Made by a program: the position numbers and the translations under genes. DNA of 24,972 nucleotides, taken from the IMG/VR virus record IMGVR_UViG_3300042406_000517, positions 1-24,972 of that record, one strand, 5' to 3'. Shown piece by piece: positions 5,786 to 24,961 of this stretch. Numbering within the stretch: the stretch's first letter is position 1; each line of letters opens with the position of its first letter. A model generated the notes under the pieces. It was given only the letters and a program-made list of their open reading frames with translations. It made no database searches and was not told the DNA's origin. Source of the stretch: a virus.

Positions 5786-6451
5786 ATGAAAGTTGAGTTT
5801 AATTCGTTACATTGGAATAACGTTGATAAGGATATGCTATCGGCACATCAACGTGTTATGGACCATTTTAGTATTCCGATGAATTATGATAACCGTGATG
5901 GTCATAATCACGGTATGTGGATGCAATGGGTAATCAATAACTCGTCAAGTGACGTTATTGTGTTTATGGAGCCCGATTGTATTCCTCTTAATAAGAACTA
6001 CTTAGAGTATATCAAGTATGCAAATCGTAATGAGACATTTGTTGGTATTGCTCAAGTCTCAAACCACATTCCCCCCAAGTCTCATATTTACGCTGCACCT
6101 GCCTTCTATGCAATCTCTAAGAAAGCATATGACAAGCTAGGCCGGCCCTCGTTTACTGAAACACGCCGATCAGATACAGCTGAAGAGATATGCTACATGG
6201 CAGAAGATAGGGGTATGAAGTATCGTGCACTAATGCCGACTTACTTTGAAAAGCCGTCCTCTGAGGGTATCTGGCCTTTAAGCAATCTTGGTTATTATGG
6301 TATTGGTACAGTGTTCGATAATTCGATATACCATCTATATCAATCCAGAATGGCAGAGAATATTGAGATGTTTGTTAAGCGTTGCGATGAAGTAACTAAA
6401 GACGAATTTACAACTGAGTTATTTACTTCTGCTACTACATTTAAATTATGA
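5786..6451 (+). CDS. Putative GT-A type glycosyltransferase
   Basis: A 221-aa soluble protein. The N-terminal half carries an Asp-Gly-His-Asn-His-Gly stretch and a strand ending Val-Phe-Met-Glu-Pro-Asp64-Cys-Ile-Pro. The latter looks like the acidic metal and nucleotide-sugar site of GT-A folds, although it is not a textbook DxD. Acceptor-side features include a Tyr-Ala-Ala-Pro-Ala-Phe-Tyr block (about 109-115). It is first in the island, with a good ribosome site, and overlaps the GT-B gene by ATGA. Assignment to glycosyltransferases rests on this site and the context; sugar and acceptor are unknown. Confidence 0.6.
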   Translation: MKVEFNSLHWNNVDKDMLSAHQRVMDHFSIPMNYDNRDGHNHGMWMQWVINNSSSDVIVFMEPDCIPLNKNYLEYIKYANRNETFVGIAQVSNHIPPKSHIYAAPAFYAISKKAYDKLGRPSFTETRRSDTAEEICYMAEDRGMKYRALMPTYFEKPSSEGIWPLSNLGYYGIGTVFDNSIYHLYQSRMAENIEMFVKRCDEVTKDEFTTELFTSATTFKL

Positions 6452-7395
6452 AAATATTATTTCACGCTAATACAATTAACTACAGAGGTACTACTGTAGC
6501 CATTACTGATTATGCAAGATATAATCAAGAGATCCTTGGCAACGAGAGTGTTATTACATACTGTAAAACAAATGGCATTGAAAAAGACATGGGTAATGAG
6601 CAAGCTGTTATCGATGAGCTTAAAAAAGAGTTTGAAGTTGTAGGTTACCGAGCTGGTGACTTAGAAAGGAAGATTGATGATCTTCATATTGACTTAGCTT
6701 ATTTTATTAACTCAGGTCAAAAAGAATCTATACCAACTAATTGTAAGACTGCAGTACACGCAGTATTCCAGTTCAATCAACCACATGGTGACCGGTACGC
6801 ATACATCAGCGATTGGTTATCACAAAAGATGTCTGGTGGTGAAATTCCTTTCGTACCTCATATTGTGCAATTACCTGATACAACAGAAAATTACCGTAGT
6901 GCTTTTAACATTAGAGAAGATCAAATTGTTATTGGTCGTATTGGTGGTTACTATACATTTGATATTCCGTTTGTAAAAGAATATATTAAACGTTTGGTTA
7001 CAGATAATGATGCATTCATATTCCTTTTTGCGGGTACAGAACCTTTTATTTCTCATCCTAATGTTCGGTTTATAAACGAGTTCCATAACCCGTTAAAGAA
7101 GGCTAAGTTTATTAATACCTGCGATGCTATGTTGCATGCAAGAGATAGGGGTGAGAGTTTCGGACTATCAATTGCAGAATTCTTATCTTTAAATAAACCG
7201 GTCCTTGCATGGAATGGTGGTCATGATTTAAATCATTTAGATATGTTAAAAGATAGCGGGTTGTTATATAATGATGCTAATGATTTAAATTACCTACTGC
7301 ATAACTTACCGGACTTTAAAGAAGACTGGACCAAGCGGGTTGAGCAGTATAAACCTATACCTGTTATGAATAAATTTAAAGAGGTGTTTATATGA
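6448..7395 (+). CDS. GT-B glycosyltransferase (GT4-like)
   Basis: A 315-aa GT-B type protein. The first strand and loop (Lys-Ile-Leu-Phe-His-Ala-Asn) begin the N-terminal Rossmann domain. The C-terminal donor domain has Arg-Gly-Glu-Ser-Phe-Gly-Leu-Ser-Ile-Ala-Glu-Phe (about residues 232-243), the family 4 nucleotide-sugar site with its Glu pair. It then has Asn-Lys-Pro-Val-Leu-Ala-Trp-Asn-Gly-Gly. It would transfer a sugar from an NDP-sugar with retention. At 315 aa it is shorter than many GT4 enzymes but both domains appear present. ATGA junctions join it to genes on both sides. Confidence 0.82.
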   Translation: MKILFHANTINYRGTTVAITDYARYNQEILGNESVITYCKTNGIEKDMGNEQAVIDELKKEFEVVGYRAGDLERKIDDLHIDLAYFINSGQKESIPTNCKTAVHAVFQFNQPHGDRYAYISDWLSQKMSGGEIPFVPHIVQLPDTTENYRSAFNIREDQIVIGRIGGYYTFDIPFVKEYIKRLVTDNDAFIFLFAGTEPFISHPNVRFINEFHNPLKKAKFINTCDAMLHARDRGESFGLSIAEFLSLNKPVLAWNGGHDLNHLDMLKDSGLLYNDANDLNYLLHNLPDFKEDWTKRVEQYKPIPVMNKFKEVFI

Positions 7396-7856
7396 CACAA
7401 ATAGTTTTTAAACGAGTTACAACTCCTGCTGAGGCTGAGAATCTTCGCGTAGTGCGTAATCAATGCCGTGAATATATGACCCGTAGTACAGATTACATTA
7501 CACCTGAACAGCAGGAAGAATGGTTCAAGACAGCATTTCGCAAGTATGATCTTTACATTGCGTATGCTATCGAGCATGGTGTATGTATTGTTGATGCTGG
7601 TTTTGGAGTTGTTCATAAAAATGAAAATGAATTTCTTCTAACTGGTGGTCTAGTACCCGAGTACAGGGATAAGGGCTTAGGTAAAATTATTTTTAAGTTC
7701 CTTGTCGATCAATGTCATAAGTCATTACCTATTCGGCTTGAAGTATTAAAAAGTAATACACGAGCATTCAAAACATACGAAGGCCTGAACTTTAAAGTAA
7801 CAGGCGAAACAGATAAAATATTTTACATGGAGTATCAATATGATTCCGTTATTTAA
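7392..7856 (+). CDS. GNAT-family acetyltransferase
   Basis: A 154-aa GNAT protein. The acetyl-CoA pyrophosphate loop is Arg92-Asp-Lys-Gly-Leu-Gly97-Lys, preceded by strand beta4 with Val-Pro-Glu-Tyr. Motif B follows as Ser-Asn-Thr-Arg-Ala-Phe-Lys-x-Tyr-Glu-Gly-Leu-Asn-Phe (about 121-134). It lies directly before and overlaps (17 nt) a DegT aminotransferase gene. That pairing is typical of enzymes that N-acetylate an amino group newly placed on an NDP-sugar (WecD/FdtC type logic). I infer an amino-sugar substrate; protein or other amines are possible. Confidence 0.85.
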   Translation: MTQIVFKRVTTPAEAENLRVVRNQCREYMTRSTDYITPEQQEEWFKTAFRKYDLYIAYAIEHGVCIVDAGFGVVHKNENEFLLTGGLVPEYRDKGLGKIIFKFLVDQCHKSLPIRLEVLKSNTRAFKTYEGLNFKVTGETDKIFYMEYQYDSVI

Positions 7857-8919
7857 AGTTGCGATGTCGGATCATGCAGCAGAGAAAGTTTCCGCTGTAC
7901 TAACTTCAGGCTTTATTGGTCAGGGGCCTATTGTAGAAGAGTTTGAAGATAAGCTTTGGCATATATTAAAATCTAAGACAAGACCTGTCACTGTAAATTC
8001 GTGTACTGCGGCTATTGATCTTTCTTTAGATCTGTTAAATATTAACCCCGGTGACGAAGTTATTGCTACACCTCAGACTTGTTTTGCATCTAACGTAGGT
8101 GCAATTCATCGAGGCGCTAGACTGCGCTGGGCTGATATTGATCCCTTGACAGGACTCATTGATCCTGTATCTGTTGGTAAACTAGTTAACGAAAAAACTA
8201 AAGCCATACTTGCTGTTAACTGGGCAGGTAAGATTTGTGATTATAAATCACTTAAAGCATTTGGTGTACCTGTAATCGAGGATGCTGCTCACACGTGGGA
8301 TGTTTTTGGTATAGGTGATAATGAGCGAGGAGATTATATTTGTTATAGTTTCCAGGCTATTAAGTTCCTTACTACCGGTGACGGTGGAATCTTAGTTTGC
8401 CCACCTGAAATGGAAAACGAAGCTCGTACACTTCGCTGGTATGGTTTAGATAGAACAAAGAACGAATCGTTCCGTTGTACTCAAGACATTACAAAAGTTG
8501 GCTTTAAGTATCACATGAATGATATTAATGCTGCAATTGGTTTATCCAATATAGGTAAAGCAGAATATTCAGTTGCTTGTAGTAGAAGGAATTCTAAAGA
8601 GTATATTACTAAAGTTAATAACCCTTTTCTTACTTTACCTGATTGGGACGAAACCTGTTCATACTGGTTATTCAGTATGCATGTAAAAGCAGGTTTAAAA
8701 GATCACTTTACTAAGTACTTGGAAAATAATGGTGTTGCAGTTAGCCCGGTTCACTTCCGTAATGATATGTACAGCAGTATATCTCAATTCCGTGAGGGTG
8801 ATCTACCAGGTGTGACATCGTTTACTGAAACACAGATCTGTATTCCTAACGGGTGGTGGTTGACTATGTTTGAGCAAGAGCATATAATCAAAGTATTGAA
8901 TGAGTATACTGGAATATGA
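7840..8919 (+). CDS. DegT/DnrJ/EryC1/StrS sugar aminotransferase
   Basis: A 359-aa PLP enzyme that converts a keto group of an NDP-sugar to an amine. Visible features are the Gly-Phe-Ile-Gly-Gln-Gly-Pro entry motif (24-30), Asn53-Ser-Cys-Thr-Ala-Ala phosphate-binding loop, Glu147-Asp148-Ala-Ala-His151 for the PLP ring nitrogen, and the Schiff-base lysine Lys175 in Ser-Phe-Gln-Ala-Ile-Lys-x-Leu-Thr-Thr-Gly-Asp-Gly-Gly. The length is near the family norm (about 370). It overlaps the GNAT gene upstream and makes an ATGA junction with the epimerase-like gene downstream. Together they suggest an N-acetylated amino-deoxysugar product. Confidence 0.92.
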   Translation: MIPLFKVAMSDHAAEKVSAVLTSGFIGQGPIVEEFEDKLWHILKSKTRPVTVNSCTAAIDLSLDLLNINPGDEVIATPQTCFASNVGAIHRGARLRWADIDPLTGLIDPVSVGKLVNEKTKAILAVNWAGKICDYKSLKAFGVPVIEDAAHTWDVFGIGDNERGDYICYSFQAIKFLTTGDGGILVCPPEMENEARTLRWYGLDRTKNESFRCTQDITKVGFKYHMNDINAAIGLSNIGKAEYSVACSRRNSKEYITKVNNPFLTLPDWDETCSYWLFSMHVKAGLKDHFTKYLENNGVAVSPVHFRNDMYSSISQFREGDLPGVTSFTETQICIPNGWWLTMFEQEHIIKVLNEYTGI

Positions 8920-9800
8920 AAATTTTAATTATTGGTGGTGAAGGGTACATTGGTACCTATCTTAATAACCATCTAAATAGTCAAGGCTTAAATGTTCAAA
9001 CCTTTGGTAATAGGAAACAAGATTATAATATTTTAGGAAGAGAATTCCTTAGTCAGTTCTCTCACATTGTATTATTAGCTGGTCATTCAAGTGTTCAGTG
9101 TTGTAATGGCCCGTTAGATTCTCCTTGGAAAAACAACGTACGCAATTTTAAAAATCTAGTTGAAAAAACGGATAATAAGCAAACTATTATATACGCTAGT
9201 AGTGCATCGGTGTATGGTGCTAATGATGTTAAACGTCTGTATATTGAAAATGAAATTAGTGTTGATTTTGTAAACAATTACGATCTTACAAAAGTAAGTT
9301 TAGACTTATTGGCAATGAAGTATATGTCTGAAGGTAGAAAGCTAATAGGTCTTCGATTCGGTACTGTCAATGGTAATTCACCAGTCATTCGAAGAGATCT
9401 AATGATTAACTCTATGGTGTATTCAGCTATTACAGAAGGCCATATTACTATTACAAATAAGCATATTAAACGCCCTATACTTTCTGTAAGAGATCTATCA
9501 AGGGCTGTTGAATCAATAATTATACAAAATACACATTCAAATATATTTAATCTTGCAACTTTTAATTCAACAGTTGAAGATATTTGTAAGATAGTTAATG
9601 AGCATACAAAAGTAGATATTATTGATAACGGAAATACATCAGGTACATATAATTTTGCTATTGATAATACTAAATTTAAAGTGCTGAATAAGTTTACATA
9701 TGAAGATAACATTCACTCGGTTGTTGAGAGTGTAATTGATTGTTATAAAAACAGAAACCCTAAAGTAGTAATTAGAAACGAATACTTCCAATATGATTGA
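8916..9800 (+). CDS. NAD-dependent sugar epimerase/dehydratase (extended SDR)
   Basis: A 294-aa extended SDR. The NAD(P)-binding Gly-Gly-Glu-Gly-Tyr-Ile-Gly (7-13) is at the N-terminus. The catalytic set is Ser95/Ser96 in Tyr-Ala-Ser-Ser-Ala-Ser-Val-Tyr-Gly and Tyr122-x3-Lys126. Such enzymes epimerise, dehydrate or reduce NDP-sugars; the exact reaction cannot be told. It could make the keto-sugar used by the adjacent aminotransferase or adjust a later product. It overlaps the next gene by 8 nt. Confidence 0.85.
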   Translation: MKILIIGGEGYIGTYLNNHLNSQGLNVQTFGNRKQDYNILGREFLSQFSHIVLLAGHSSVQCCNGPLDSPWKNNVRNFKNLVEKTDNKQTIIYASSASVYGANDVKRLYIENEISVDFVNNYDLTKVSLDLLAMKYMSEGRKLIGLRFGTVNGNSPVIRRDLMINSMVYSAITEGHITITNKHIKRPILSVRDLSRAVESIIIQNTHSNIFNLATFNSTVEDICKIVNEHTKVDIIDNGNTSGTYNFAIDNTKFKVLNKFTYEDNIHSVVESVIDCYKNRNPKVVIRNEYFQYD

Positions 9801-11700
9801 TTACATTGTTGTTATCTATAAAAATTATGATTTGCTTGAATTGCAAATAGAAAATTTTAAACGTCTTTTTTCACATAAAGATTATAATTTAATAGTTGTA
9901 GATAATACACCGGATAGCGAAAAGCAGATTACTGATGCATGCTTGGATCCTATTATAGATCACTTTGTAAAATGTGAAAGTGTACCAACATTCGATGGTT
10001 TATCCCACGGTAAGGCTATTAATGAAGGCTTAAAATACGTTAAGTCCGATATTGTTGGTATTATAGATTCAGACTATTTTATTCTTAATAGTAATATTCA
10101 CGATTACGTACATAAAAAGTTTAAAGCGGGATACAAGGCTATTGGAACCGAATACAATGATGGTAAAGATACAAAGAGCTGGGTAGAAAAGAACCCTGAA
10201 GCTTTTAAAGACATTCCTGTTTGCTTTGGTGCATATTATGATGCAGAGCTAGCTAAATCACATTCCTGGATTATTACAGAACAAGAAGTAAACGAAAATC
10301 GAGCTACAGGTTATGTTGAAGTAGGATATCGAATTCGTAAACATATTTTTGAAAATAATATCCTATCAGAAAACTGGAAGACAGATGCCACTAGCTATGG
10401 TAACTGTTATTTTAAAAACAGCGATGGTGAGATGATGGGTGTTCATTATGTCGCGGGGTCGCATAGACGCTGGAGTGATGTATCTAAGTCTGAGTTAAGA
10501 GATATTCTTTCTTTGGATTACAGTAGCTACAAAAGGTTAACAAATTGTCTTTGCTGCGGTGGTACTAACTTAGAAGATATTTTAAACCTTAACAACCAAC
10601 CACTGGCTAATAGTTATCTTGAAGCCGTTGATGAAGAAGAGTATAGTTACCCGTTAGGTATTAACTATTGTATGGATTGTACGCATATTCAGCTAACACA
10701 TGTCGTAGACCCTGATAAACTATTCAAACACTATCTCTACGTAAGTGGTACAACAAAGACGTTAAGGGATTACTTTGATTGGTTTGTAGACTTTACTAGT
10801 AATTACACAGAAGGTAAAAAGGTACTTGATATAGCGTGTAACGATGGTACCCAACTTGACTCTTATAAAGAGAAAGGTTTTATTACATACGGTATTGATC
10901 CAGCTGAAAACTTATACCCTGAAAGCTCTAAGAAGCATTCTATTGTATGTGATTACTTTACATCTGCTAAACAGTTTGATACAAAGTTTGATATCATTAC
11001 CGCTCAAAACGTATTTGCTCATAACTCATACCCTAAGGAGTTTTTAGTGTCCTGTAGAGAGGCGTTGAGCGATAAGGGGTGTATCTTTATTCAGACCTCA
11101 CAGGCTGATATGGTAGTCAACAATCAGTTTGATACTATATACCATGAGCATATTTCTTTCTTTAGTGTTAAATCTTTTTGTGCACTAGCTCATCGGGCAG
11201 GGTTAAATGTTATTGATATAACTCGTACCCCTATTCATGGTACAAGTTTTGTATTTGTCTTATCTAAGGATCTACCAGATCAATCAGAAAAGTTTATTGC
11301 AGAAGAACAAACACTTACATATCGTACTATGCTTAAGTATGCAAACAACTGCATACGTATTGCTAAAGAAACAAAAGCAATGGTTGAGGCATTGCAAAAG
11401 CAGGGCATTAAGGTTATCGGGTACGGGGCCGCTGCTAAGGGTAATACATTCCTTAACTTTTCAAAATTTAACTTAGATTATATTGTAGATGATAATCCTT
11501 TGAAGCATAACTTGTTTAGCCCCGGTACAAGAATTCCTATTCTGCCCACTGACTCTTTGTTTAGTGAAGAGGGGGAAATTTGCGTTGTACCTTTAGCCTG
11601 GAACTTCTTTGATGAGATTAAATCTAAAGTTCTTTCCCGTAAATCGGATAAAATTAACTTTTTAAAATACTTCCCTGAAGTGGTATGCACAAAACTATAA
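9793..11700 (+). CDS. Fusion: GT-A glycosyltransferase plus sugar C-methyltransferase
   Basis: A 635-aa two-part protein. Residues about 1-245 look like a GT-A glycosyltransferase: Val-Val-Asp-Asn (35-38) and the metal-binding Asp92-Ser-Asp94. Residues about 250-635 form a complete NDP-sugar C-methyltransferase of the TylCIII/NovU type. That part has a zinc-binding domain (Cys252-x2-Cys255, Cys293-x2-Cys296), the SAM loop Val-Leu-Asp-Ile-Ala-Cys-Asn-Asp-Gly (344-352), the family block Tyr450-His-Glu-His, and a C-terminal Rossmann-like domain opening with Gly-Tyr-Gly-Ala-Ala-Ala-Lys-Gly (543-550). It would add a methyl branch to a keto-sugar and transfer sugar in one chain. There is no frameshift or stop between the halves. 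Confidence 0.85.
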   Translation: MIDYIVVIYKNYDLLELQIENFKRLFSHKDYNLIVVDNTPDSEKQITDACLDPIIDHFVKCESVPTFDGLSHGKAINEGLKYVKSDIVGIIDSDYFILNSNIHDYVHKKFKAGYKAIGTEYNDGKDTKSWVEKNPEAFKDIPVCFGAYYDAELAKSHSWIITEQEVNENRATGYVEVGYRIRKHIFENNILSENWKTDATSYGNCYFKNSDGEMMGVHYVAGSHRRWSDVSKSELRDILSLDYSSYKRLTNCLCCGGTNLEDILNLNNQPLANSYLEAVDEEEYSYPLGINYCMDCTHIQLTHVVDPDKLFKHYLYVSGTTKTLRDYFDWFVDFTSNYTEGKKVLDIACNDGTQLDSYKEKGFITYGIDPAENLYPESSKKHSIVCDYFTSAKQFDTKFDIITAQNVFAHNSYPKEFLVSCREALSDKGCIFIQTSQADMVVNNQFDTIYHEHISFFSVKSFCALAHRAGLNVIDITRTPIHGTSFVFVLSKDLPDQSEKFIAEEQTLTYRTMLKYANNCIRIAKETKAMVEALQKQGIKVIGYGAAAKGNTFLNFSKFNLDYIVDDNPLKHNLFSPGTRIPILPTDSLFSEEGEICVVPLAWNFFDEIKSKVLSRKSDKINFLKYFPEVVCTKL

Positions 11701-12401
11701 TTTCACATTTCTTTAATGAAGAGTACTTACTTCCCTGGTGGTTAGAACATCATAAAAAATACTTTGACCATGGTATCATGATTAATTATGCCTCTACAGA
11801 TAACTCGGTTAGTATTATTAAACAAACTTGCCCAGAATGGACTATTATAAATTCTAGAAATCATTTCTTTGATGCTAAGCTTATAGATGATGAAGTCATG
11901 GATATTGAAAGCACGGTAGCGGGCTGGAAAACATGTCTTAATACAACAGAATTTTTAGTTGGAGATTATTCTATAATGAATGAGGTTGCAGACCAAGAGA
12001 TTATTGCTCCGTGTTTTATTATGGTTGATAGTCAACCTGACAACCAACCTACTTACAGTAAATCTTTAATTGAACAAAAGCATTGCGGTATACATTACCA
12101 TGGTAGGGACCCTTTAGCTAGACGTCCAAGATTAATCCATAATAAAAACAGAGTCACGTATCCACTAGGTAGACATTACCCAGATCATAATACTGAAAAG
12201 CTCAAGGTACTGTGGTATGGTTGGTCACCTTTTAATAATAAAACACTAGACCGTAAATTACAAATACAAGATAGGATACCTGAGGCAGACAAGGCAAGAG
12301 GGTTCGGTTCACAACATATTGCTGATGAGCATAAGTTGAACGCAATCTTCTATAAAGATTACTTTCCGTTTGCTGTAGATCTTAAATCAGAATATAAATA
12401 A
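11685..12401 (+). CDS. Glycosyltransferase, Glyco_tranf_2_4/GT92-like
   Basis: A 238-aa protein whose opening, His-Phe-Phe-Asn-Glu-Glu-Tyr-Leu-Leu-Pro-Trp-Trp-x-x-His-His, is the hallmark of the small family-2-like glycosyltransferases (Pfam Glyco_tranf_2_4; GT92-like). It is followed by the usual strand and Ser-Thr-Asp-Asn-Ser motif (about 37-41). The rest has the His-Tyr-His-Gly and Pro-Arg-Leu-Ile blocks common in these proteins. It starts inside the end of the fusion gene (16-nt overlap), so the two are translationally coupled. Donor and acceptor are unknown. Confidence 0.75.
   Translation: MHKTIISHFFNEEYLLPWWLEHHKKYFDHGIMINYASTDNSVSIIKQTCPEWTIINSRNHFFDAKLIDDEVMDIESTVAGWKTCLNTTEFLVGDYSIMNEVADQEIIAPCFIMVDSQPDNQPTYSKSLIEQKHCGIHYHGRDPLARRPRLIHNKNRVTYPLGRHYPDHNTEKLKVLWYGWSPFNNKTLDRKLQIQDRIPEADKARGFGSQHIADEHKLNAIFYKDYFPFAVDLKSEYK
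12393..12400 (+). promoter_or_regulatory. Candidate T4-type late promoter TATAAATA
   Basis: An exact TATAAATA at the end of the preceding gene, overlapping its stop codon, 22 nt before the ATG at 12422. The following 20-nt gap is one of the few real gaps in the island, which gives it slight support. Confidence 0.35.
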
Positions 12402-12421
12402 AAAAAACTTAAAAGGTGATT

Positions 12422-13090
12422 ATGAACATAGCATTAATTTTTGCAGGTATATCTTTCGGTCATAAATCAGAGAGAGATTTCAATCATTGTTTTCCTAATA
12501 TAGATCGTAACTTAATTCAACCGCTTCGGGAAGAACATTCTGTTTACAATTACGTTATGACGTATAATAATGATAGAATGGATGAAGTTACCAAACTCCT
12601 TAACCCTAAAAGACTTGCTTCTATACCTTTTGAAGGTAGTAAGCAAAACCCTACTCGTGCCGCTGCTATCGATCTTACCGGTAATGATGATCATATTGAC
12701 TTCTATATTATGTCGAGGTTTGACGTCCACTACAATAAAAATTTAAAAGACTTTAACTTAGACTGGGATAAATTTAATTTTGTTTCCCGTGAGGGTAATG
12801 GGTATTGGGAGAGTCAACAATTTGTAGGTGATACATTTTATGCCTGGCCGAAACGTCTTCATAAACAAGTTGTACAAGGGTTTAATGAATTAGCAAAGTT
12901 CGATCCTAATCACATGCATAACTTTTACTCTATTCTTGCTCCTATCATCGGTCAAGAAAATATTCACTTCATGAGTGAGGAACCGCAATTAAGTGGCCAC
13001 TTGCTAACAAGTATTTGTACAAGTGACTACACAGGTCGCTTACGTGGTAAGATACCAATTAACGAAGAAATCTTAGCTAGATTTCCATAA
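12422..13090 (+). CDS. Hypothetical protein in glycan island, possible glycosyltransferase
   Basis: A 222-aa soluble protein. It has an Asn-Ile-Ala-Leu-Ile-Phe-Ala-Gly-Ile opening strand and a Tyr-Ile-Met-Ser-Arg-Phe-Asp-Val block (about 97-104). Arg-Phe-Asp in this position recalls the acidic nucleotide-sugar site of some GT-A proteins. I choose ATG 12422 with AAAAGGTG upstream rather than the in-frame GTG at 12416. It follows a short gap that may hold a promoter. I do not recognise a specific family; a glycosyltransferase-like role is inferred from context and the motif. Confidence 0.55.
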   Translation: MNIALIFAGISFGHKSERDFNHCFPNIDRNLIQPLREEHSVYNYVMTYNNDRMDEVTKLLNPKRLASIPFEGSKQNPTRAAAIDLTGNDDHIDFYIMSRFDVHYNKNLKDFNLDWDKFNFVSREGNGYWESQQFVGDTFYAWPKRLHKQVVQGFNELAKFDPNHMHNFYSILAPIIGQENIHFMSEEPQLSGHLLTSICTSDYTGRLRGKIPINEEILARFP

Positions 13091-13101
13091 TAAGGATTTA
13101 A

Positions 13102-13827
13102 ATGATTAATGTAGTTATTCCAATGGCCGGTAGAGGTCAGCGATTTGTAGAAAGTGGTTACGATAAACCCAAACCAATGATTGATGTGGTTGGTGTTCCT
13201 ATGATCAAACGAGTCATAGATTCACTTACGTCCAAACACAGTGAATGTAATTTTATTTTTATTGCATTGAAAGAACATTTAGATAACGGACTTCAGGAAT
13301 TTCTTGAACAACAAGGTACAATTATTCCGTTAGATATTGTTACTGAAGGTGCTGCATGTACCACTTTGATGGCCCTACATTACATTAATAATTTAGAGCC
13401 TTTAGTTATTGCAAACTGTGATCAATATCTTGAATGGGATTTTGATAGTTTTTTAGAGCATTCTAAAGACCGCGATGGTTCACTGGTTGTGTTTAATTCA
13501 ACCAACCCCCATCATAGTTATGCTAAGGTAAAAAAAGGCCAAGTTATAGAAGTAGCTGAAAAGAAAGTTATTTCCGATAAAGCATGCGCAGGTATCTATT
13601 ACTTCCGACATGGTAATGAATATATCGAGAGTGTAGTTATGATGATTGCTAAGAATATAAGAACTAATAACGAGTTTTATATTGCGCCTGCATACAATGA
13701 ATTAATTGCAGGGTCAGGCAATGTTTCGGTATATGAAGTTGATGTTAACAAAAAGCATATGCTTGGTACACCGTATGAGTTAGAAATATTTTTAGATAAA
13801 GTTGAAAACGGGGATGTTGTATTATGA
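13102..13827 (+). CDS. Sugar-phosphate nucleotidyltransferase
   Basis: A 241-aa protein opening with Val-Ile-Pro-Met-Ala-Gly-Arg-Gly-Gln-Arg-Phe and Asp-Lys-Pro-Lys-Pro-Met, the signature of NDP-sugar pyrophosphorylases (NTP_transferase). The first part binds the nucleotide and the Lys-Pro-Lys-Pro region (22-25) orients the phosphates. Asn-Cys-Asp-Gln (about 110-113) is the metal-site strand. It would activate a sugar 1-phosphate (or similar) to the NDP-sugar used by other island enzymes. It overlaps the SDR gene by ATGA, so the two probably act in sequence. A ribosome site, AAGGA, is present in the 11-nt gap. Confidence 0.85.
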   Translation: MINVVIPMAGRGQRFVESGYDKPKPMIDVVGVPMIKRVIDSLTSKHSECNFIFIALKEHLDNGLQEFLEQQGTIIPLDIVTEGAACTTLMALHYINNLEPLVIANCDQYLEWDFDSFLEHSKDRDGSLVVFNSTNPHHSYAKVKKGQVIEVAEKKVISDKACAGIYYFRHGNEYIESVVMMIAKNIRTNNEFYIAPAYNELIAGSGNVSVYEVDVNKKHMLGTPYELEIFLDKVENGDVVL

Positions 13828-14480
13828 AAGTATTAATTTTTGGTAAGAGTGATATAGGTGAAGGTATTAAACAGCTATATCCAGATACGGTAAACGTACC
13901 TAAAGAAGAATGCGATGTTAGAGATTATAATGCTATCTGTGCAACACTAGAGAAATATAAACCTGATGTAATTGTTAACTGCGCTGGAATTTCTCATGTA
14001 CAAGTGGTTAAAGATTCAAATATTAAACACTGGCAGGAAGAGATTGAAGTTAACTTGTTAGGAAGTTATTTAATTGCACGAGCATCTATTAACTGGAATG
14101 TTAAGACTATGATCTTTATTGCATCAGTTGCTGGTATGTACGGTAAACCAGAACATAGTGGTTACTCTGCATCTAAGTCTGGCGTCATCTCATTCGTACA
14201 GTCATTAGGTTTTGAGGGCTATAAAGCATATTCTGTTAGCCCTGGGCGTGTAGATACTAAGATGAGAGAAAACGATTACCCTGGTGAAGATAAGCGTACC
14301 AGACTTTCTACGCTACAAGTTGCAGAAGTGGTAAAGGAATGTATTGACGGTAATTACGAGCCAGGTGATAATATCGTTATTCGCAAAAGAGGTTTTACGA
14401 AGCTTAAGCGCGTTGATAAAGGTCAACCCTGGAAGAAGTACCTTAACGTACAACCACTGGGTGCACCTAAGCTAATCTAA
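13824..14480 (+). CDS. Short-chain dehydrogenase/reductase
   Basis: A 218-aa classical SDR. The catalytic residues are Asn52-Cys-Ala-Gly55, Ser101 and Tyr114-x3-Lys118, with Pro-Gly after Ser-Val-Ser. The N-terminal cofactor loop is Gly-Lys-Ser-Asp-Ile-Gly-Glu-Gly-Ile, a shortened form of the usual Thr-Gly-x3-Gly-x-Gly. It reduces or oxidises a carbonyl with NAD(P). Coupling to the nucleotidyltransferase gene suggests the substrate is the activated sugar (or alditol) made by that enzyme. It is followed by a TAATG junction. Confidence 0.85.
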   Translation: MKVLIFGKSDIGEGIKQLYPDTVNVPKEECDVRDYNAICATLEKYKPDVIVNCAGISHVQVVKDSNIKHWQEEIEVNLLGSYLIARASINWNVKTMIFIASVAGMYGKPEHSGYSASKSGVISFVQSLGFEGYKAYSVSPGRVDTKMRENDYPGEDKRTRLSTLQVAEVVKECIDGNYEPGDNIVIRKRGFTKLKRVDKGQPWKKYLNVQPLGAPKLI

Positions 14481-14920
14481 TGAAAATTATTTGTCATCGT
14501 GGTAATACATTTGGACCTGATCCAGATAATGAAAATAAACCCGAAGTAATTGATTATTGTATTAATCAAGGATACGATATAGAAATTGACCTCTGGGTCA
14601 ATAATAACGATCTGTATCTCGGACATGATGAGCCGACCTACCCTATTCATATGGATTATCTTGTATCAATGAAGACAAGATTGTGGATCCATTGTAAGAA
14701 TCTCCAAGCAAGCGCGGAGTTGTTTAGGTTCAGAGGCTTTAATTATTTTATGCATGATAAGGATGATTACACCCTAACATCTCATGGATATGTTTGGACA
14801 TATCCAAAGCTACAGAACGTTTTTTCTTATAATCAAATTCTACTGGATTTTTACCCTAATGTTAATTTTGAAAAATATAAGCTATTAGGCATTCATGGGG
14901 TATGTGTTGACTATGTCTAA
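14480..14920 (+). CDS. GDPD/PI-PLC-like phosphodiesterase fold protein
   Basis: A 146-aa protein with the start of a glycerophosphodiester phosphodiesterase barrel: His6-Arg7-Gly-Asn, Glu35-Ile-Asp37 and Gly-His49-Asp-Glu. These correspond to the two catalytic His and the metal-binding Glu/Asp of the family. A Leu-Trp-Ile-His-Cys-Lys-Asn strand follows. At 146 aa it is well short of the usual 230-250, so it may be a minimal barrel. Proteins of this kind occur in bacterial polysaccharide loci. It may hydrolyse a phosphodiester in a glycan or lipid, but this is inference. Confidence 0.65.
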   Translation: MKIICHRGNTFGPDPDNENKPEVIDYCINQGYDIEIDLWVNNNDLYLGHDEPTYPIHMDYLVSMKTRLWIHCKNLQASAELFRFRGFNYFMHDKDDYTLTSHGYVWTYPKLQNVFSYNQILLDFYPNVNFEKYKLLGIHGVCVDYV

Positions 14921-15653
14921 AATTTCTTTATGCTGTCCAGTTTATACCATGAGCGGTACCCGAGCTGAAAAGTTTCTAGTTGAATATCTCTCTCATTTAA
15001 TCTTTCAAACGTTTAAAGACTTTGAAGTTATTATTTCAGATCAAAGCACGTTTGATAACTTAAGATCTATAGTAGATACCTTTGACCACGTTCTTAATAT
15101 TCGATATGTACGAAATACCAGTGAGAAAAAGAACGCTGCTAACAATGTCAATAATGCTGTACGGCATGCCACAGGAGACATTGTAAAATTACTTTACATG
15201 GATGACTTCTTTGTAGATCCATTTGCGTTACAAAAGATAAGTGATGCATTTGATAATAAACCAGAAGGTAAATGGTTTATATCTGGGTTTACTCATTGCA
15301 ATGAAGATAGGTCTCAGTACTTTGATACTAGACTTCCTTGGTATGGTAACAAGCACGTGAATGGAGACAACACAACCGGTAATCCATCTAACTATGCCGT
15401 AAGACGAGACTGCGCAATCGAGATGGATGATGACTTATTGTGGATTGTAGATGGTGAATACTTCTACCGGTCTTATTACTATCATGGTGATCCTATAATG
15501 ATAGATGATGTTTTGGTTTGCTTTAGAGAACATGGTTCTTCTGCATTCCGGGACCCTAAGTTTCAAGAACTCGATGCAAAAGAAAGACAGTACTGTATCG
15601 ACAAATATAATGGTCCCATGCCAACGAAAGAAGTAGCACTGAGCTGGAAATGA
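14913..15653 (+). CDS. Family 2 glycosyltransferase
   Basis: A 246-aa GT-A protein. It opens with Ile-Ser-Leu-Cys-Cys-Pro-Val-Tyr, has Val-Ile-Ile-Ser-Asp-Gln-Ser as second strand and Leu-Tyr-Met-Asp-Asp-Asp-Phe-Phe type acidic motif (Met-Asp-Asp, about residue 95) for Mn and NDP-sugar. A later Trp-Ile-Val-Asp-Gly-Glu supplies the likely catalytic base region. I start it at 14913, overlapping the previous gene by 8 nt, because the GT2 strand begins directly there; 14895 is the alternative. It is the last island gene, 31 nt before the sliding clamp gene. Confidence 0.82.
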   Translation: MSKISLCCPVYTMSGTRAEKFLVEYLSHLIFQTFKDFEVIISDQSTFDNLRSIVDTFDHVLNIRYVRNTSEKKNAANNVNNAVRHATGDIVKLLYMDDFFVDPFALQKISDAFDNKPEGKWFISGFTHCNEDRSQYFDTRLPWYGNKHVNGDNTTGNPSNYAVRRDCAIEMDDDLLWIVDGEYFYRSYYYHGDPIMIDDVLVCFREHGSSAFRDPKFQELDAKERQYCIDKYNGPMPTKEVALSWK

Positions 15654-18787: not shown

Positions 18788-19009
18788 ATGTTCTACGCAA
18801 ACATGGCTATCGATTCAATTCAAGACGCCAAAATTACCTTCCTCAAACAAACTGTTCAGGAAGAATCCCTTAAAAAACCTTTAGTTGATTTTGTCGAGGC
18901 ACAGCGTGTCTTTACAAAGCAAATTGCTAAGTCTGCTAGTGATGTAATTACACTGACAGCTCAAACATTTGCAAATGCAATTACAGGTACTACTAAAAAG
19001 GGAGCTTAA
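18788..19009 (+). CDS. Small helical, phasin-like protein, 73 aa
   Basis: A 73-aa helical protein with no Cys or Trp. The central part (about residues 32-62), with Phe-Val-Glu-Ala-Gln, Lys-Gln-Ile-Ala-Lys-Ser-Ala-Ser-Asp-Val-Ile-Thr-Leu, recalls phasin-type amphipathic helices that coat granules. That likeness is weak and by eye only. It has a strong AGGAG ribosome site and is separated from the hsp20 gene by one base. Being made with Hsp20 behind a structured leader, it may act in stress or protein aggregation. Confidence 0.7.
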   Translation: MFYANMAIDSIQDAKITFLKQTVQEESLKKPLVDFVEAQRVFTKQIAKSASDVITLTAQTFANAITGTTKKGA

Positions 19010-19010
19010 T

Positions 19011-19520
19011 ATGACATTATTGACGACTTTTGGTCCAGCATTCAAGGACATGGATAAATTTTTTGTTGGCTTTGATGACCAGTTTACTCGTCTTGCTAAA
19101 ATGCATGATGACATGACAAAAAATATTCCCAACTATCCCCCATACAACATTAAAAAGACAGGTGACAATACTTACGTTGTTGAAGTAGCTGTTGCTGGGT
19201 TTGCCAAACAAGATATCGAAATCGAACTTGCTGATGGTAAGATGTTAATTAAGGGTAACGTTCAGTCAAACGAAGCCGAGGAAAATTTCCTATTCAAGGG
19301 AATCGCAAATCGTGCCTTCACTCGTACTTTTGCACTCGATGATCAAGTCGAAGTACAAAATGCCGAAATGTTCAATGGTATGCTTAAGGTCTTCCTAGAG
19401 CGTATTATTCCTGAGCATAAAAAGCCAAAGAAGATCGAAGTTAAAGATACTTCAGAAGCTAAACCTAAAAAAACTAAACCCCAACTACTTACAGAAGACC
19501 CAGAAGGTCGCGACCTGTAA
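19011..19520 (+). CDS. Small heat shock protein Hsp20 (IbpA-like)
   Basis: A 169-aa small heat shock protein. The alpha-crystallin domain spans about residues 42-142, starting with Tyr-Pro-Pro-Tyr-Asn-Ile as in IbpA/IbpB. It contains the Ala-Phe-Thr-Arg-x-Phe-Ala-Leu block and Gly-Met-Leu-Lys-Val, and ends with Ile-Pro-Glu-x-Lys-Lys-Pro-Lys-Lys-Ile. A charged tail follows. It should form oligomers that hold unfolding proteins for refolding by DnaK. I choose the ATG at 19011 (GGGAG upstream) rather than the in-frame start at 18969, which lies inside the preceding gene. Hsp20 genes are common in T4-like aquatic phages. A terminator follows. Confidence 0.93.
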   Translation: MTLLTTFGPAFKDMDKFFVGFDDQFTRLAKMHDDMTKNIPNYPPYNIKKTGDNTYVVEVAVAGFAKQDIEIELADGKMLIKGNVQSNEAEENFLFKGIANRAFTRTFALDDQVEVQNAEMFNGMLKVFLERIIPEHKKPKKIEVKDTSEAKPKKTKPQLLTEDPEGRDL

Positions 19521-21223: not shown

Positions 21224-21815
21224 GAAGATTTTCTTTTGGCGTGAGATTGATTACGATGAGCCACTCATCGATAAGCTAAGTAATATACTTCAGCCTTTCT
21301 GCCAAGGTATACAAAAAGTACTAGATACTGTTCATCCTAAAATCGATTATGTTAAGATCGATAAATGGGATACCTGGAATATGGATACTTCTCTTTCCCA
21401 GATCATCCTGCCCATGCTAAAACAGCTTCAAGCAACTAAGCATGGGGCACCTTCCGTTGACGATGGGGATGTACCTGAAGGTTTGAATCTTCGTTCTACA
21501 GAAGCATCTGCAAAAGAGAACGAATGGGATACAGACGAAAACTGGCATAAGCGCTGGGACTGGGTACTAGCAGAAATGATTTGGACCTTTGAGCAATTGA
21601 CCTCTGAATGGGATAAACAATACCATACAGGTGAATTTGATAGAGTAACTACACCATGTGCATGGGATGAGAACGGTAAGCCTACTATGTACAGTTGGGA
21701 TAAGGGTCCAAACGATACTAGTGAGTTTGATAGTGAAGGTTATATGAAGCATGACAAACGTATTTCAAACGGTCTAGTTTTATTTGGTAAATACTACAGA
21801 GGGCTTTGGGATTGA
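21165..21815 (+). CDS. Conserved T4-like phage protein, 216 aa
   Basis: A 216-aa protein I recall as a conserved, uncharacterised family in T4-like and cyanophages. Landmarks are Lys-Ile-Asp-Lys-Trp-Asp-Thr-Trp-Asn-Met-Asp (about 66-76), Ile-Ile-Leu-Pro-Met-Leu-Lys-Gln-Leu (81-89), Lys-His-Gly-Ala-Pro-x-Val-Asp-Asp-x-Asp-Val-Pro (93-105) and Arg-Trp-Asp-Trp-Val-Leu-x-Glu-Met-Ile-Trp-x-Phe-Glu-Gln (about 130-144). The conserved Asp and Trp suggest a metal or nucleic-acid role, but no function is established. The long 59-nt overlap with the upstream gene is unusual for the window. Confidence 0.75.
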   Translation: MKVYLSKYRYHWISPYKILEKIFFWREIDYDEPLIDKLSNILQPFCQGIQKVLDTVHPKIDYVKIDKWDTWNMDTSLSQIILPMLKQLQATKHGAPSVDDGDVPEGLNLRSTEASAKENEWDTDENWHKRWDWVLAEMIWTFEQLTSEWDKQYHTGEFDRVTTPCAWDENGKPTMYSWDKGPNDTSEFDSEGYMKHDKRISNGLVLFGKYYRGLWD

Positions 21816-22540
21816 GTATATTAGTTATAACCCCTACTACAGGGTCACCTGAATTAGCTGATGCTGTATATTCGGTATTGAATCAGACAAACAAAGAGGT
21901 AGAGCACCTTCTAGTTGTAGACGGTGTTAAGTTTTCATCAAAGGTAGACGAGGTATTAAATGATGCAAGAATTATTACAGGCGGAAAAGTTAAACGAATT
22001 GACTTACCGTTTAATACCGGTAAAAATGGCTTTTATGGCCACCGAATCATGGCTGGGTTTGGCCATCTTATCGATCACGATTATGTTCTCTTTTTAGATC
22101 AAGATAATTGGTTTGAGCCTGAACATGTAGACTCACTTATTAATATTATAGAGAGTAAAAAGCTTGACTGGGCATATTCTCTTAGACAAATTTATGATAA
22201 AGATAAAAATTATGTAACTGATGATAATTGTGAATCCTTAGGTCGATGGCCTGCATGGGTTGGTGAAGACGTCTATCTAATAGATACAAGTTCATATTGT
22301 TTTAAGACATCTTTCTATCGTCAAGTATGTCATATCTGGGATTTCGGATGGGGCGGGGATAGAAGATTCTATAATATTTTAAAAGATAATATTAAGCATG
22401 ATAACTATGTATGTACAGGTGAATATACACTCTCATACCGATTAGGTGGTAACGAAGGCTCCGTTAATCAAGAGTTCTTTGATGAAGGTAACAAAAAGAT
22501 GCATACAAAGTATGCAGGTAAATATCCTTGGGTTAAATAA
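21812..22540 (+). CDS. Family 2 glycosyltransferase, TTG start
   Basis: A 242-aa GT-A protein. It opens with Ser-Ile-Leu-Val-Ile-Thr-Pro-Thr-Thr-Gly, has the His-Leu-Leu-Val-Val-Asp-Gly strand (about 34-40), Phe-Asn-Thr-Gly-Lys and the metal site Leu-Asp-Gln-Asp-Asn-Trp (about 94-99). Trp-Gly-Gly-Asp-Arg (about 182-186) is near the acceptor side. No ATG precedes this strand; a TTG at 21812 makes a TTGA junction with the previous stop (TTG 21806 is the alternative). It begins the heptose module and may transfer the heptose or build the chain carrying it. Confidence 0.82.
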   Translation: MSILVITPTTGSPELADAVYSVLNQTNKEVEHLLVVDGVKFSSKVDEVLNDARIITGGKVKRIDLPFNTGKNGFYGHRIMAGFGHLIDHDYVLFLDQDNWFEPEHVDSLINIIESKKLDWAYSLRQIYDKDKNYVTDDNCESLGRWPAWVGEDVYLIDTSSYCFKTSFYRQVCHIWDFGWGGDRRFYNILKDNIKHDNYVCTGEYTLSYRLGGNEGSVNQEFFDEGNKKMHTKYAGKYPWVK

Positions 22541-22541
22541 A

Positions 22542-23306
22542 GTGAATATTTTAGTAACAGGTCATAGAGGCTTTATAGGCCAGAATCTTGTACCTCATTT
22601 AGAACATATTGGTCATAATGTAACTGGTTTCGAATGGGGCGATGTATTCCCGGACATAGAGCAGTTCGAACAGGTTATTCATCTAGGTGCTATCTCCTCT
22701 ACAACAGAACGTAATGTAGAGAAAATAATGACACAGAATTACAAATTCAGTGTTGATCTTTTAGATATGTGTAATTACTTTGGTATACCTTTCCAGTATT
22801 CAAGTTCGGCGTCTGTATATGGTTTGAACCAACAGTTTACTGAAACATCACCAGTTGATCCTAGAACACCCTATGCATGGTCAAAATATATGTTTGAATT
22901 ATATGCTGCTGGTAAAGAAGCACAAGGATTTAGATACTTTAATGTATACGGACCACATGAAGATCATAAAGGTTCACAGGCTAGTCCCTATCACCAGTTT
23001 ACAGAGCAAGCGCTTAATACAAGAGTAATTAATGTATTTGAAAATAGTGAAAACTTTTTAAGAGATTTTATACCTGTTAAGACTATTATTGATGCACATG
23101 TTCGCTTTATGGATTTAGAGGTTAACGGTATTTGGAATGTTGGTACAGGTAAGGCTAAATCGTTTTTAGATGTAGCAGGTGAGATTGCAGAGAGGTATAA
23201 TGCTAGTATTGAGTATATTCCTTTCCCCGATCACCTTAAACATTCCTATCAACGCTACACATGTGCTGATATAACAAATTTTAACAAGGCATATTCTGGT
23301 GTCTAA
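22542..23306 (+). CDS. ADP-heptose 6-epimerase-like protein (HldD-like), GTG start
   Basis: A 254-aa extended SDR resembling ADP-L-glycero-D-manno-heptose 6-epimerase HldD. It has Thr-Gly-His-Arg-Gly-Phe-Ile-Gly13 for NADP, His-Leu-Gly-Ala-Ile-Ser-Ser-Thr-Thr-Glu (47-56), catalytic Tyr111-x3-Lys115, and Asn-Val-Tyr-Gly-Pro-x-Glu-x-His-Lys-Gly. It ends with Phe-Leu-Arg-Asp-Phe-Ile and Asn-Val-Gly-Thr-Gly-Lys-Ala-Lys-Ser-Phe, all in HldD order. E. coli HldD is about 310 aa, so this is a compact form. GTG 22542 is the only sensible start; the longer frame from 22446 overlaps the GT2 gene. It would convert ADP-D-glycero- to L-glycero-heptose. Confidence 0.85.
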   Translation: MNILVTGHRGFIGQNLVPHLEHIGHNVTGFEWGDVFPDIEQFEQVIHLGAISSTTERNVEKIMTQNYKFSVDLLDMCNYFGIPFQYSSSASVYGLNQQFTETSPVDPRTPYAWSKYMFELYAAGKEAQGFRYFNVYGPHEDHKGSQASPYHQFTEQALNTRVINVFENSENFLRDFIPVKTIIDAHVRFMDLEVNGIWNVGTGKAKSFLDVAGEIAERYNASIEYIPFPDHLKHSYQRYTCADITNFNKAYSGV

Positions 23307-23700
23307 GTCTGTATTTGTTAACGGTACGTTTGATATCCTACATCTTGGTCATCTGGCTCTTCTTAATTATGCTAAGAGTTTAGGTGATAAGTTATTCGTT
23401 GCTATTGATAGTGATGAAAGAGTAAGGCAGTTGAAAGGTCCTACCAGACCTATTTACGATTCATTTCAACGTAAGACTATGTTACTTAATCTCAAAGCTG
23501 TAGATGAGGTTGAGATATTCAGTAGTAATGAAGAGTTAGAGCTGTGGATTAAGCAGATCAAACCCACTATAATGGTAGTAGGTAGTGACTGGCGTAATAA
23601 GACTGTTATAGGTAGCCAATACGCTAAACGATTAGAATTTTTTGAACGCATTGATGATTACTCCTCTACAAAAACAATTGAAAATATTATTAATAGGTGA
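23299..23700 (+). CDS. HldE C-terminal-type adenylyltransferase, stand-alone
   Basis: A 133-aa nucleotidyltransferase with Gly9-Thr-Phe-Asp-Ile-Leu-His15-Leu-Gly-His18, the HxGH nucleotide-binding motif, and a C-terminal Ser-Ser-Thr-Lys-Thr-Ile corresponding to the second ATP motif. It matches the adenylyltransferase half of HldE (RfaE), which makes ADP-heptose from heptose 1-phosphate. In E. coli this half is fused after the kinase; here it is a separate gene placed before the kinase. It starts with GTG, overlapping the epimerase stop by 8 nt. A glycerol-3-phosphate cytidylyltransferase-type role is a less likely alternative given the neighbours. Confidence 0.88.
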   Translation: MSKSVFVNGTFDILHLGHLALLNYAKSLGDKLFVAIDSDERVRQLKGPTRPIYDSFQRKTMLLNLKAVDEVEIFSSNEELELWIKQIKPTIMVVGSDWRNKTVIGSQYAKRLEFFERIDDYSSTKTIENIINR

Positions 23701-24406
23701 TTGCTGTATCGACGAATACCAGTATGGTACTGTTGATAGAATAAGTCCGGAAGCCCCTGTCCCTATTTTTAAACATCTTCGCTCGGATGAAAAACTTGGC
23801 ATGGTTTATAATGTAAGAAGTAACCTAGAAAAACTAGGTTGTGAGGTAACGCTTATTACCCGTGAACCATCAAGAAAAATTAGACTTATCGATAGTAGAA
23901 CAGGTCATCATATAGTTCGTATTGACCAGGACGTGTTTGCTGTCCCCGTAGATATATTACCAAATGTTACACTTAACTATGATGCAATAGTTATCTCAGA
24001 TTATGACAAAGGTGTTGTTACATATGAATTAGTTGAACAGTTAATTCAAACGACTTCTGTGCCAATTTTTATTGACACAAAGAAAACTGACTTGGCTAGA
24101 TTTGAAGGTGCAATAGTTAAAATTAATAGTTCGGAAAATAGCTTAGCAAGGACATTTCCTACAGAATTAATTGTAACCACAGGTAAACAAGGTGCCCGGT
24201 ATAAGGGTAGGCAGTACCCGGCAGTTGACATCGACGTTGTTGATGTCTGTGGCGCAGGTGATACATTCTTAGCCGCCTTAGTATATGGATATCTTCTTGA
24301 ACGTAAGATGTCAACAGCAATTGCATTTGCTGTACAGGCAGGGTCAGTAACAGTACAACACATGGGTGTATATGCTCCCACGTTAGAGGAAATAGTATGC
24401 GTTTAG
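23654..24406 (+). CDS. Heptose-7-phosphate kinase-like (HldE N-terminal type)
   Basis: A 250-aa ribokinase-fold protein resembling the kinase half of HldE. It has Gly-Asp-x-x-x-Asp-x-Tyr-x-Tyr-Gly-x-Val-x-Arg-Ile-Ser-Pro-Glu-Ala-Pro-Val-Pro (15-37), Ile-Ser-Asp-Tyr-Asp-Lys-Gly, Ile-Asp-Thr-Lys-Lys, and the PfkB anion-hole Cys-Gly-Ala-Gly-Asp203. The usual Gly-Gly-Ala-Ala-Asn loop after the first motif is altered to Leu-Gly-Met-Val-Tyr-Asn, and the protein is shorter than the usual 310-320 aa. So substrate use may differ. ATG 23654 is chosen, overlapping the adenylyltransferase gene by 47 nt. Confidence 0.85.
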   Translation: MITPLQKQLKILLIGDCCIDEYQYGTVDRISPEAPVPIFKHLRSDEKLGMVYNVRSNLEKLGCEVTLITREPSRKIRLIDSRTGHHIVRIDQDVFAVPVDILPNVTLNYDAIVISDYDKGVVTYELVEQLIQTTSVPIFIDTKKTDLARFEGAIVKINSSENSLARTFPTELIVTTGKQGARYKGRQYPAVDIDVVDVCGAGDTFLAALVYGYLLERKMSTAIAFAVQAGSVTVQHMGVYAPTLEEIVCV

Positions 24407-24774
24407 AAGGCTTTGTAGAGAAGGGTTGGGGCCACGAGCTGATCTGGGCTACCAATGATAAATATTGTGGTAAGCTTTTACACTTTAAAAGAGCATCAAA
24501 ATTTTCTATGCATTTTCATGCACAGAAAGATGAAACGTGGTATGTGCTATCGGGTAGGTTTGAGATTCGTTGGATCGATACTACCGATGCTTCAGAAAAA
24601 TTCGTTCAATTGTTTCAAGGTGATACATGGCACAATAAGCCATTACTACCCCATCAGTTGATATGTATTGAAGAGGGTACTATAATAGAAGTATCAACGC
24701 CTGATTCAGTAGAAGACAATTATAGGGTAGCACCCGGGGACAGTCAAACAAATGGCACAATTCATTCCAAATGA
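24397..24774 (+). CDS. Cupin, mannose-6-phosphate isomerase type II-like
   Basis: A 125-aa single cupin barrel. The metal-binding set is His39, His41, Glu46 (Met-His-Phe-His-x4-Glu-Thr-Trp-Tyr-Val-Leu-Ser-Gly) and His86 in Leu-Pro-His-Gln. It begins with Glu-Lys-Gly-Trp-Gly-His-Glu and ends with Val-Ser-Thr-Pro-Asp, Glu-Asp-Asn-x-Arg-Val and Pro-Gly-Asp-Ser-Gln, as in cupins beside heptose or mannose genes. It overlaps the kinase gene by 10 nt. It may isomerise a phosphosugar or bind a nucleotide sugar; the substrate is not shown. Confidence 0.85.
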   Translation: MRLEGFVEKGWGHELIWATNDKYCGKLLHFKRASKFSMHFHAQKDETWYVLSGRFEIRWIDTTDASEKFVQLFQGDTWHNKPLLPHQLICIEEGTIIEVSTPDSVEDNYRVAPGDSQTNGTIHSK

Positions 24775-24961
24775 TATTATGAATAGTAAAAATAGGCCTA
24801 AGTTTGTGGCTGCTGCTTATCAAAATGCTACAAGACAAAATCAATCGCGGGGTAGCTCAGTAGTAGAGCGCTGGACTCATAATCCAGAGGTCGGAGGCGC
24901 GCAACCTTCCCCCGCATCCCAATTTTTCATACCACCGAATATTATACTGGGGTATAACTAA
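24752..24961 (+). CDS. Doubtful small ORF overlapping the tRNA-like gene
   Basis: A 69-codon frame begins inside the cupin gene and runs through the tRNA-like gene. Its middle (Gly-Ser-Ser-Val-Val-Glu-Arg onwards) is the translation typical of tRNA DNA and argues against a real protein. In favour, the first 30 residues look coding and the stop overlaps the next ATG in a TAATG junction. No ribosome site is visible. Probably spurious. Confidence 0.2.
   Translation: MAQFIPNDIMNSKNRPKFVAAAYQNATRQNQSRGSSVVERWTHNPEVGGAQPSPASQFFIPPNIILGYN
24846..24921 (+). tRNA. Initiator-like tRNA-Met (CAT), odd T loop
   Basis: The acceptor stem CGCGGGG/CCCCGCA has a C-A mismatch at its end, the mark of bacterial initiator tRNA. 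The D arm is GCTC-AGTAGTA-GAGC. The anticodon arm is CTGGA-CTCATAA-TCCAG with anticodon CAT, which lacks one of the three G-C pairs of true initiators. The T stem GGAGG/CCTTC holds, but the loop is CGCGCAA instead of a TTCRANY type. The 3' end reads TCCCA rather than NCCA. It may be a divergent tRNA or a pseudogene. Confidence 0.65.

Follow-up and report, generated by a model that had tools for sequence, protein, structure and literature searches.

Here we describe a compact sugar-activation cassette in the virus record IMGVR_UViG_3300042406_000517, the complete 24,972 bases of which form the window analysed. With its gp45-like clamp and its gp44-like clamp loader, the window is recognisable as a fragment of a T4-like phage; among named phages, its gp44 is closest to those of Methylophilales phage Melnitz (63%) and of Pelagibacter phage Mosig. 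The cassette encodes homologues of a heptose-pathway 6-epimerase, adenylyltransferase and kinase, followed by a small cupin, and we propose, with a probability of about 0.7, that it makes ADP-heptose, the cupin acting as a sedoheptulose-7-phosphate isomerase instead of GmhA. A preliminary description of the window had already listed this gene set, with its coordinates, a family 2 glycosyltransferase (GT2) upstream and the cupin downstream, and the sequence confirms it in full, including the stated overlap of 47 nt between adenylyltransferase and kinase; epimerase and adenylyltransferase overlap by 8 nt, and kinase and cupin by 10 nt.

The heptose-pathway homology suggested at that time also held. 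For the epimerase, the adenylyltransferase and the kinase, the top NCBIfam models (TIGR02197, TIGR02199 and TIGR02198, respectively) are heptose-pathway families, well ahead of non-heptose families. The epimerase matches E. coli HldD (1eq2; 7.8e-49), whose catalytic Y140, K144 and K178 correspond to Y111, K115 and K143, and the catalytic Tyr and both Lys are invariant in 17 phage homologues. The adenylyltransferase scores 113.8 bits with TIGR02199, as against 62 bits (6e-17) with glycerol-3-phosphate cytidylyltransferase, and conserves the HxGH motif and GxD residues; its C-terminal STT motif reads SST in the window and is preceded by Tyr, not Arg, the latter residue being found there in one of 64 adenylyltransferase sequences. 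By the STTR5 rule reported in PMC11461863, the scarcity of Arg at this position would predict that ATP is preferred. The kinase matches TIGR02198 at 4.2e-40 (137.8 bits) and ribokinase at 7.5e-13, and its AlphaFold2 model (pLDDT 92.8) has HldA (4e8y) as its best PDB match at 1.7e-20, compared with about 1e-14 or worse for ribokinases. On profile scores we ruled out a glycerol-phosphate cytidylyltransferase and a generic sugar kinase as the identities of these two proteins. A GDP-heptose route in the window was likewise ruled out, the kinase being of the PfkB family and the adenylyltransferase CTP_transf_like, not GHMP kinase and NTP_transferase.

The kinase had first been taken for one half of an HldE. 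Judged by its sequence, it is instead a compact, divergent HldA/HldE homologue belonging to a phage lineage, and no equivalog. At approximately 250 aa it is some 50 residues shorter than the median span of 302 in 80 bacterial kinases, with deletions after residues 70 (about 29 residues), 96, 131 and 167 (17 residues). Of the residues showing 93% or more conservation across those bacterial kinases it retains nearly all, including SPEAPVP, K75, R77, R89, D91, NxxE and GAGD. A single fully supported branch divides phage from bacterial kinases in the tree, and across 84,980 cellular species the best among the matches listed were 25–32% identical and of bacterial length. The division of HldE into two genes, which the preliminary description singled out together with their reversed order, is ordinary, because bacteria commonly have HldA and HldC as two proteins (a fused kinase–adenylyltransferase was detected at 27 of the 80 sampled bacterial kinase loci). 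The reversal, on the other hand, proved typical of phages.

This emerged from a comparison of 84 kinase-bearing loci, representing 66 distinct sequences, counts over which are not counts of independent events, similarity of the kinase having been the criterion for including a locus and many of the loci being close relatives. Phages conserve the reversed, overlapping order: at 83 of the 84 loci the gene immediately 5' of the kinase is the adenylyltransferase, in a single relative frame throughout, and in 82 the adenylyltransferase stop falls 4, 7 or 19 nt beyond the kinase G(D) codon. The sole exception (L031 9962-12242) runs kinase, cupin, adenylyltransferase, epimerase. A frameshift fusion of the two proteins would be compatible with the constant relative frame, but was rejected since nothing else spoke for it. 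Within 3.5 kb of the kinase, a cupin occurs at 80 loci, a heptose-type epimerase homologue at 76, a small haloacid dehalogenase (HAD) protein at 25 and a carbamoyltransferase at eight, while a GT2 stands beside the cassette only in the window's phage and in its nearest relative, L005.

Against L005 the cassette genes are free of stops and show ratios of nonsynonymous to synonymous substitution (dN/dS) of about 0.06–0.15; they are under purifying selection. The sporadic distribution of such genes might suggest decayed, host-derived passengers or genome filler without current function, and ‘stuffer DNA’ has been raised for cyanophage lipopolysaccharide (LPS) clusters in a passage of PMC3037559. 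We regard this as very improbable here, given the low dN/dS, the order and overlap of adenylyltransferase and kinase kept in those 83 loci, and the invariant catalytic residues.

The cupin carries the novel part of the proposal. It aligns with the full cupin domain of type II phosphomannose isomerase (PMI) in hhalign (96.2%, 2.6e-9), and a fold search returns the cupin barrel, with D-lyxose isomerases among the matches. The active site of one D-lyxose isomerase, TsLI, consists of K62, H75, H77, K86, E88, H143, E156 and D163 (PMC8378251). These residues map to invariant positions of the phage cupin, in which K26, H39, H41, K44, E46, H86, E98 and D107 are unchanged among 43 phage sequences, although it is uncertain whether D103 or D107 is the counterpart of D163. 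The protein has, in other words, the metal ligands His, His, Glu, His and the substrate lysines, Glu and Asp of aldose–ketose isomerases. With the type II PMI cupin domain (PF01050) and the D-lyxose/D-mannose isomerases (PF07385) it shares fold, metal site and catalytic lysines and, by prediction, the same C1/C2 ketol chemistry in the manno/lyxo series; it differs from them in standing alone at about 116–135 aa, in its 25% identity over the PMI domain, and in its predicted seven-carbon substrate.

Since type II PMI is the nearest enzyme family of the cupin, one might suppose that the cassette activates a hexose or pentose, with a PMI-like cupin and with a kinase, nucleotidyltransferase and epimerase that have drifted off heptose, as their scores below the equivalog cut-offs and the lost segments of the kinase would allow. 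We hold this to be quite unlikely: the heptose-kinase residues and the HldD residues, including K178, are retained, and in other phages the cupin is paired with a second, unrelated heptose kinase.

That pairing is apparent from the distribution of the cupin, which was found in 35 of 50,697 phage records. In 31 of these, from about 16 phages, it accompanies the compact HldA-type kinase, and these are all of the records with such a kinase. In the remaining four (Bellamy twice, SynMITS9220M01 and AG-345-E15) it adjoins an HddA-type GHMP heptose kinase, followed in Bellamy and SynMITS9220M01 by an HddC-like nucleotidyltransferase. The HldA and HddA routes use unrelated kinases and have only the isomerase and phosphatase steps in common.

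No GmhA-like SIS protein is present in the window, and the GmhA SIS family PF13580 was over its cut-off in none of 66 records, with a single weak match (E=0.006). Because PF13580 alone misses divergent phage GmhA, the search was repeated with TIGR00441 in 50 records. It gave a match in SynMITS9220M01 only, within a second module, and in none of the compact-kinase records tested. In this second heptose module (L201 12556-14006), the matching protein (47 bits), GmhA-like but divergent enough to escape Pfam SIS_2, is combined with another HddA-like kinase. It is the active-site residues, the company of two unrelated heptose-7-phosphate kinases and the failure to find GmhA that lead us to infer an isomerase role for the cupin. 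The preliminary description had seen neither the gmhA nor the gmhB type step in the window; this stands insofar as neither a GmhA-like SIS protein nor a HAD phosphatase is recognised there, but the isomerase step is probably performed by the adjacent cupin, to which that description had given no role. Among bacterial homologues of the cupin, heptose genes were not found beside the gene, including in a genome with a strong match (2e-26; L166 / L178), where the contig carries a KdsB-like protein.

Several observations weigh against the proposed pathway. All three heptose matches lie under the NCBIfam equivalog cut-offs (220 bits against a curated 274.6 for the epimerase, 113.8 against 181.5 for the adenylyltransferase and 137.8 against 345 for the kinase), such that these are divergent proteins. 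The GG motif of the kinase has Met at its second position, and several segments conserved in bacteria are gone from the protein. Among the solved relatives of the cupin in the fold search, oxalate decarboxylases and quercetinases outrank, by raw score, the D-lyxose isomerases, to which the whole-profile match is weak (5%, E 0.007), though the core motif agrees. The absence of GmhA is weakened as evidence because most records are fragments, and hosts possessing GmhA, e.g. a Methylophilaceae genome, could provide heptose-7-phosphate. Finally, no phosphatase was found in the 35-kb record of L005 or recognised in the window.

Cupins are also known to act on heptoses at a later stage, the heptose C3/C5 epimerases of Campylobacter being RmlC-type cupins; epimerases of this type are not known to have a metal site. 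By analogy with these enzymes, whose work on heptoses is described in a passage of PMC7949155, the kinase, adenylyltransferase and epimerase could make ADP-heptose from heptose-7-phosphate supplied by a host GmhA, and the cupin could serve afterwards in C3/C5 epimerisation or some other modification of the nucleoside diphosphate (NDP)-heptose. A related bacterial genome does carry GmhA, and family searches with the cupin return WbuC-like and generic cupin matches. We nevertheless consider a later role for the cupin unlikely, as four metal ligands and two isomerase lysines are invariant in its family, and the same cupin accompanies the HddA/HddC route, the nucleotide-sugar chemistry of which is different.

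The phosphatase step may be encoded by some relatives. The annotations of P-SSM2, S-CAM1, Sf-CH8 and S-SM2 label a small gene phosphoheptose isomerase, which would make it a GmhA; we rejected this for the P-SSM2-type gene, the sequence being that of a small HAD protein and not of an SIS protein. The HAD DxD motif is present in the three copies aligned (P-SSM2, Sf-CH8 and S-CAM1), and the P-SSM2 protein matches capsule biosynthesis HAD phosphatases (TIGR01689, 1e-8). Found in five of 16 records, this small HAD protein may perform the GmhB (7-phosphatase) step. In P-SSM2, then, PSSM2_311 (L002 15728-16072), called a phosphoheptose isomerase, is a small HAD protein, and PSSM2_312 (L002 16053-16409), called a nucleotidyltransferase, is a cupin; both names are likely errors of annotation, and they recur in S-CAM1, Sf-CH8 and S-SM2.

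In the pathway that we propose, the cupin, a predicted sedoheptulose-7-phosphate ketol-isomerase non-orthologous to GmhA, would yield heptose-7-phosphate, which the compact HldA-type kinase would convert to the 1,7-bisphosphate. The 7-phosphate would then be taken off by the small HAD protein in some relatives, and here by a host enzyme or by the product of a gene beyond the fragment. The HldC-type protein would attach AMP, presumably giving the ADP-linked sugar, the HldD-type epimerase would invert C6, and a glycosyltransferase, perhaps the GT2, would transfer the sugar to a surface or virion glycan. More broadly, and with slightly less confidence, we think it probable that aquatic phages possess a compact NDP-heptose pathway that is complete in itself, GmhA being replaced by a non-orthologous cupin of approximately 120 residues that is common to the HldA/HldC and HddA/HddC routes, some of the hosts being cyanobacteria with heptose-free LPS.

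Relative to the bacterial ADP-heptose pathway, the cassette uses the same kinase, adenylyltransferase and epimerase families, with catalytic residues retained, but has an unrelated cupin in place of GmhA, a compact kinase, an overlapping adenylyltransferase–kinase order and, where a phage phosphatase is present, a small HAD protein that is no close homologue of GmhB. The GDP-alpha-heptose route, with its GHMP kinase (HddA) and NTP_transferase (HddC), occurs with the same cupin in Bellamy and SynMITS9220M01, the latter's heptose genes having been listed previously (PMC7378029), whereas in the window the kinase is PfkB-type and the adenylyltransferase CTP_transf_like. Homologues of the window's adenylyltransferase, kinase, cupin and epimerase have been noted before in cyanophage ‘LPS’ and jumbo-phage sugar clusters. 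In the part of PMC3037559 concerned, T4-GCs 304, 305, 307 and 308, which co-occur in P-SSM2, S-SM2 and S-SSM7, are called linked LPS genes; from the P-SSM2 and S-SM2 annotations they are the adenylyltransferase, kinase, cupin and epimerase. Jumbo cyanophages are described in a passage of PMC7824862 as having PfkB kinases, HIGH nucleotidyltransferases, epimerases and cupin-fold sugar isomerases. The relevant passages of these two papers assign neither a heptose route nor a GmhA-replacing role to the cupin, and the window's phage, as its gp44 indicates, is no close cyanophage. Viral enzymes that produce ADP-heptose were reported by Tang et al. 2024 (Science), and their survey, as recounted in passages of PMC11461863 and PMC11573728, lists no phosphatase in viruses, whereas we find a HAD candidate at 25 of the 84 loci. 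Thus viral ADP-heptose synthesis and cyanophage ‘LPS’ clusters are already known, and what is new is the predicted replacement of GmhA by a cupin; a literature search, in which subscription journals were thinly covered, found no proposal of a cupin isomerase at this step.

As to the fate of the sugar, a destination in surface or virion glycans would agree with the position of the cassette near glycosyltransferase and tail-fibre genes: about 3 kb downstream of it in L005 there is a tail-fibre-like gene, and in P-SSM2 and S-CAM1 the cassette sits among tail-fibre and hoc genes. DNA modification, another destination one might consider, has no specific support. The recognition of ADP-heptose by animal cells as a bacterial signal, mentioned in the preliminary description, is background to the cassette and no more. 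Phage Sf-CH8, which carries the adenylyltransferase, kinase, HAD and cupin genes, infects Synechococcus WH8102, the LPS of which contains neither heptose nor 3-deoxy-D-manno-octulosonate (KDO) (PMC4515613), and this argues against simple supply of a normal host core sugar. These phages may rather add a sugar that their host does not normally make. If the pathway is as proposed, a widespread group of phage genes labelled only ‘LPS’ or ‘unknown’ would gain a five-step pathway and a new cupin-fold enzyme activity, and annotations in model cyanophages would be corrected (PSSM2_311 to a probable HAD phosphatase, PSSM2_312 to cupin).

Table 1. Genes of the cassette and its flanking glycosyltransferase, in window coordinates.
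Feature	Position	Strand	Supporting match or remark
GT2-family glycosyltransferase	21812..22540	+	PF00535 2.3e-10
HldD-like ADP-glyceromanno-heptose 6-epimerase homologue, 254 aa, GTG start	22542..23306	+	TIGR02197 4.2e-65
HldC/HldE-C-like adenylyltransferase, GTG start	23299..23700	+	TIGR02199 5.7e-33; phrog_7878 4.4e-44
HldA/HldE-N-like kinase, ATG start	23654..24406	+	TIGR02198 4.2e-40; phrog_8133 4.2e-82
Metal-dependent cupin, 125 aa	24397..24774	+	phrog_7851 3.2e-40
Adenylyltransferase/kinase overlap, 47 nt	23654..23700	+	adenylyltransferase C-terminus (YSST...) and kinase N-terminus, in different frames

Just 3' of the cupin, Rfam scores an eighth tRNA (55 bits; 24846-24917) that is absent from the seven tRNAs of ARAGORN. 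Elsewhere in the window, a phage GroES-like co-chaperonin and an Hsp20-like protein are encoded at 4149-4412 and 18969-19520. A second sugar cluster (5786-15653) looks like a branched amino-sugar pathway, containing a GT1-like protein, a GNAT acetyltransferase, a DegT aminotransferase, an NAD epimerase/dehydratase, a GT2–C-methyltransferase fusion of 635 aa (Methyltransf_13/23/14), a GT2, a MobA/IspD-like NTP transferase with an SDR protein, and another GT2.

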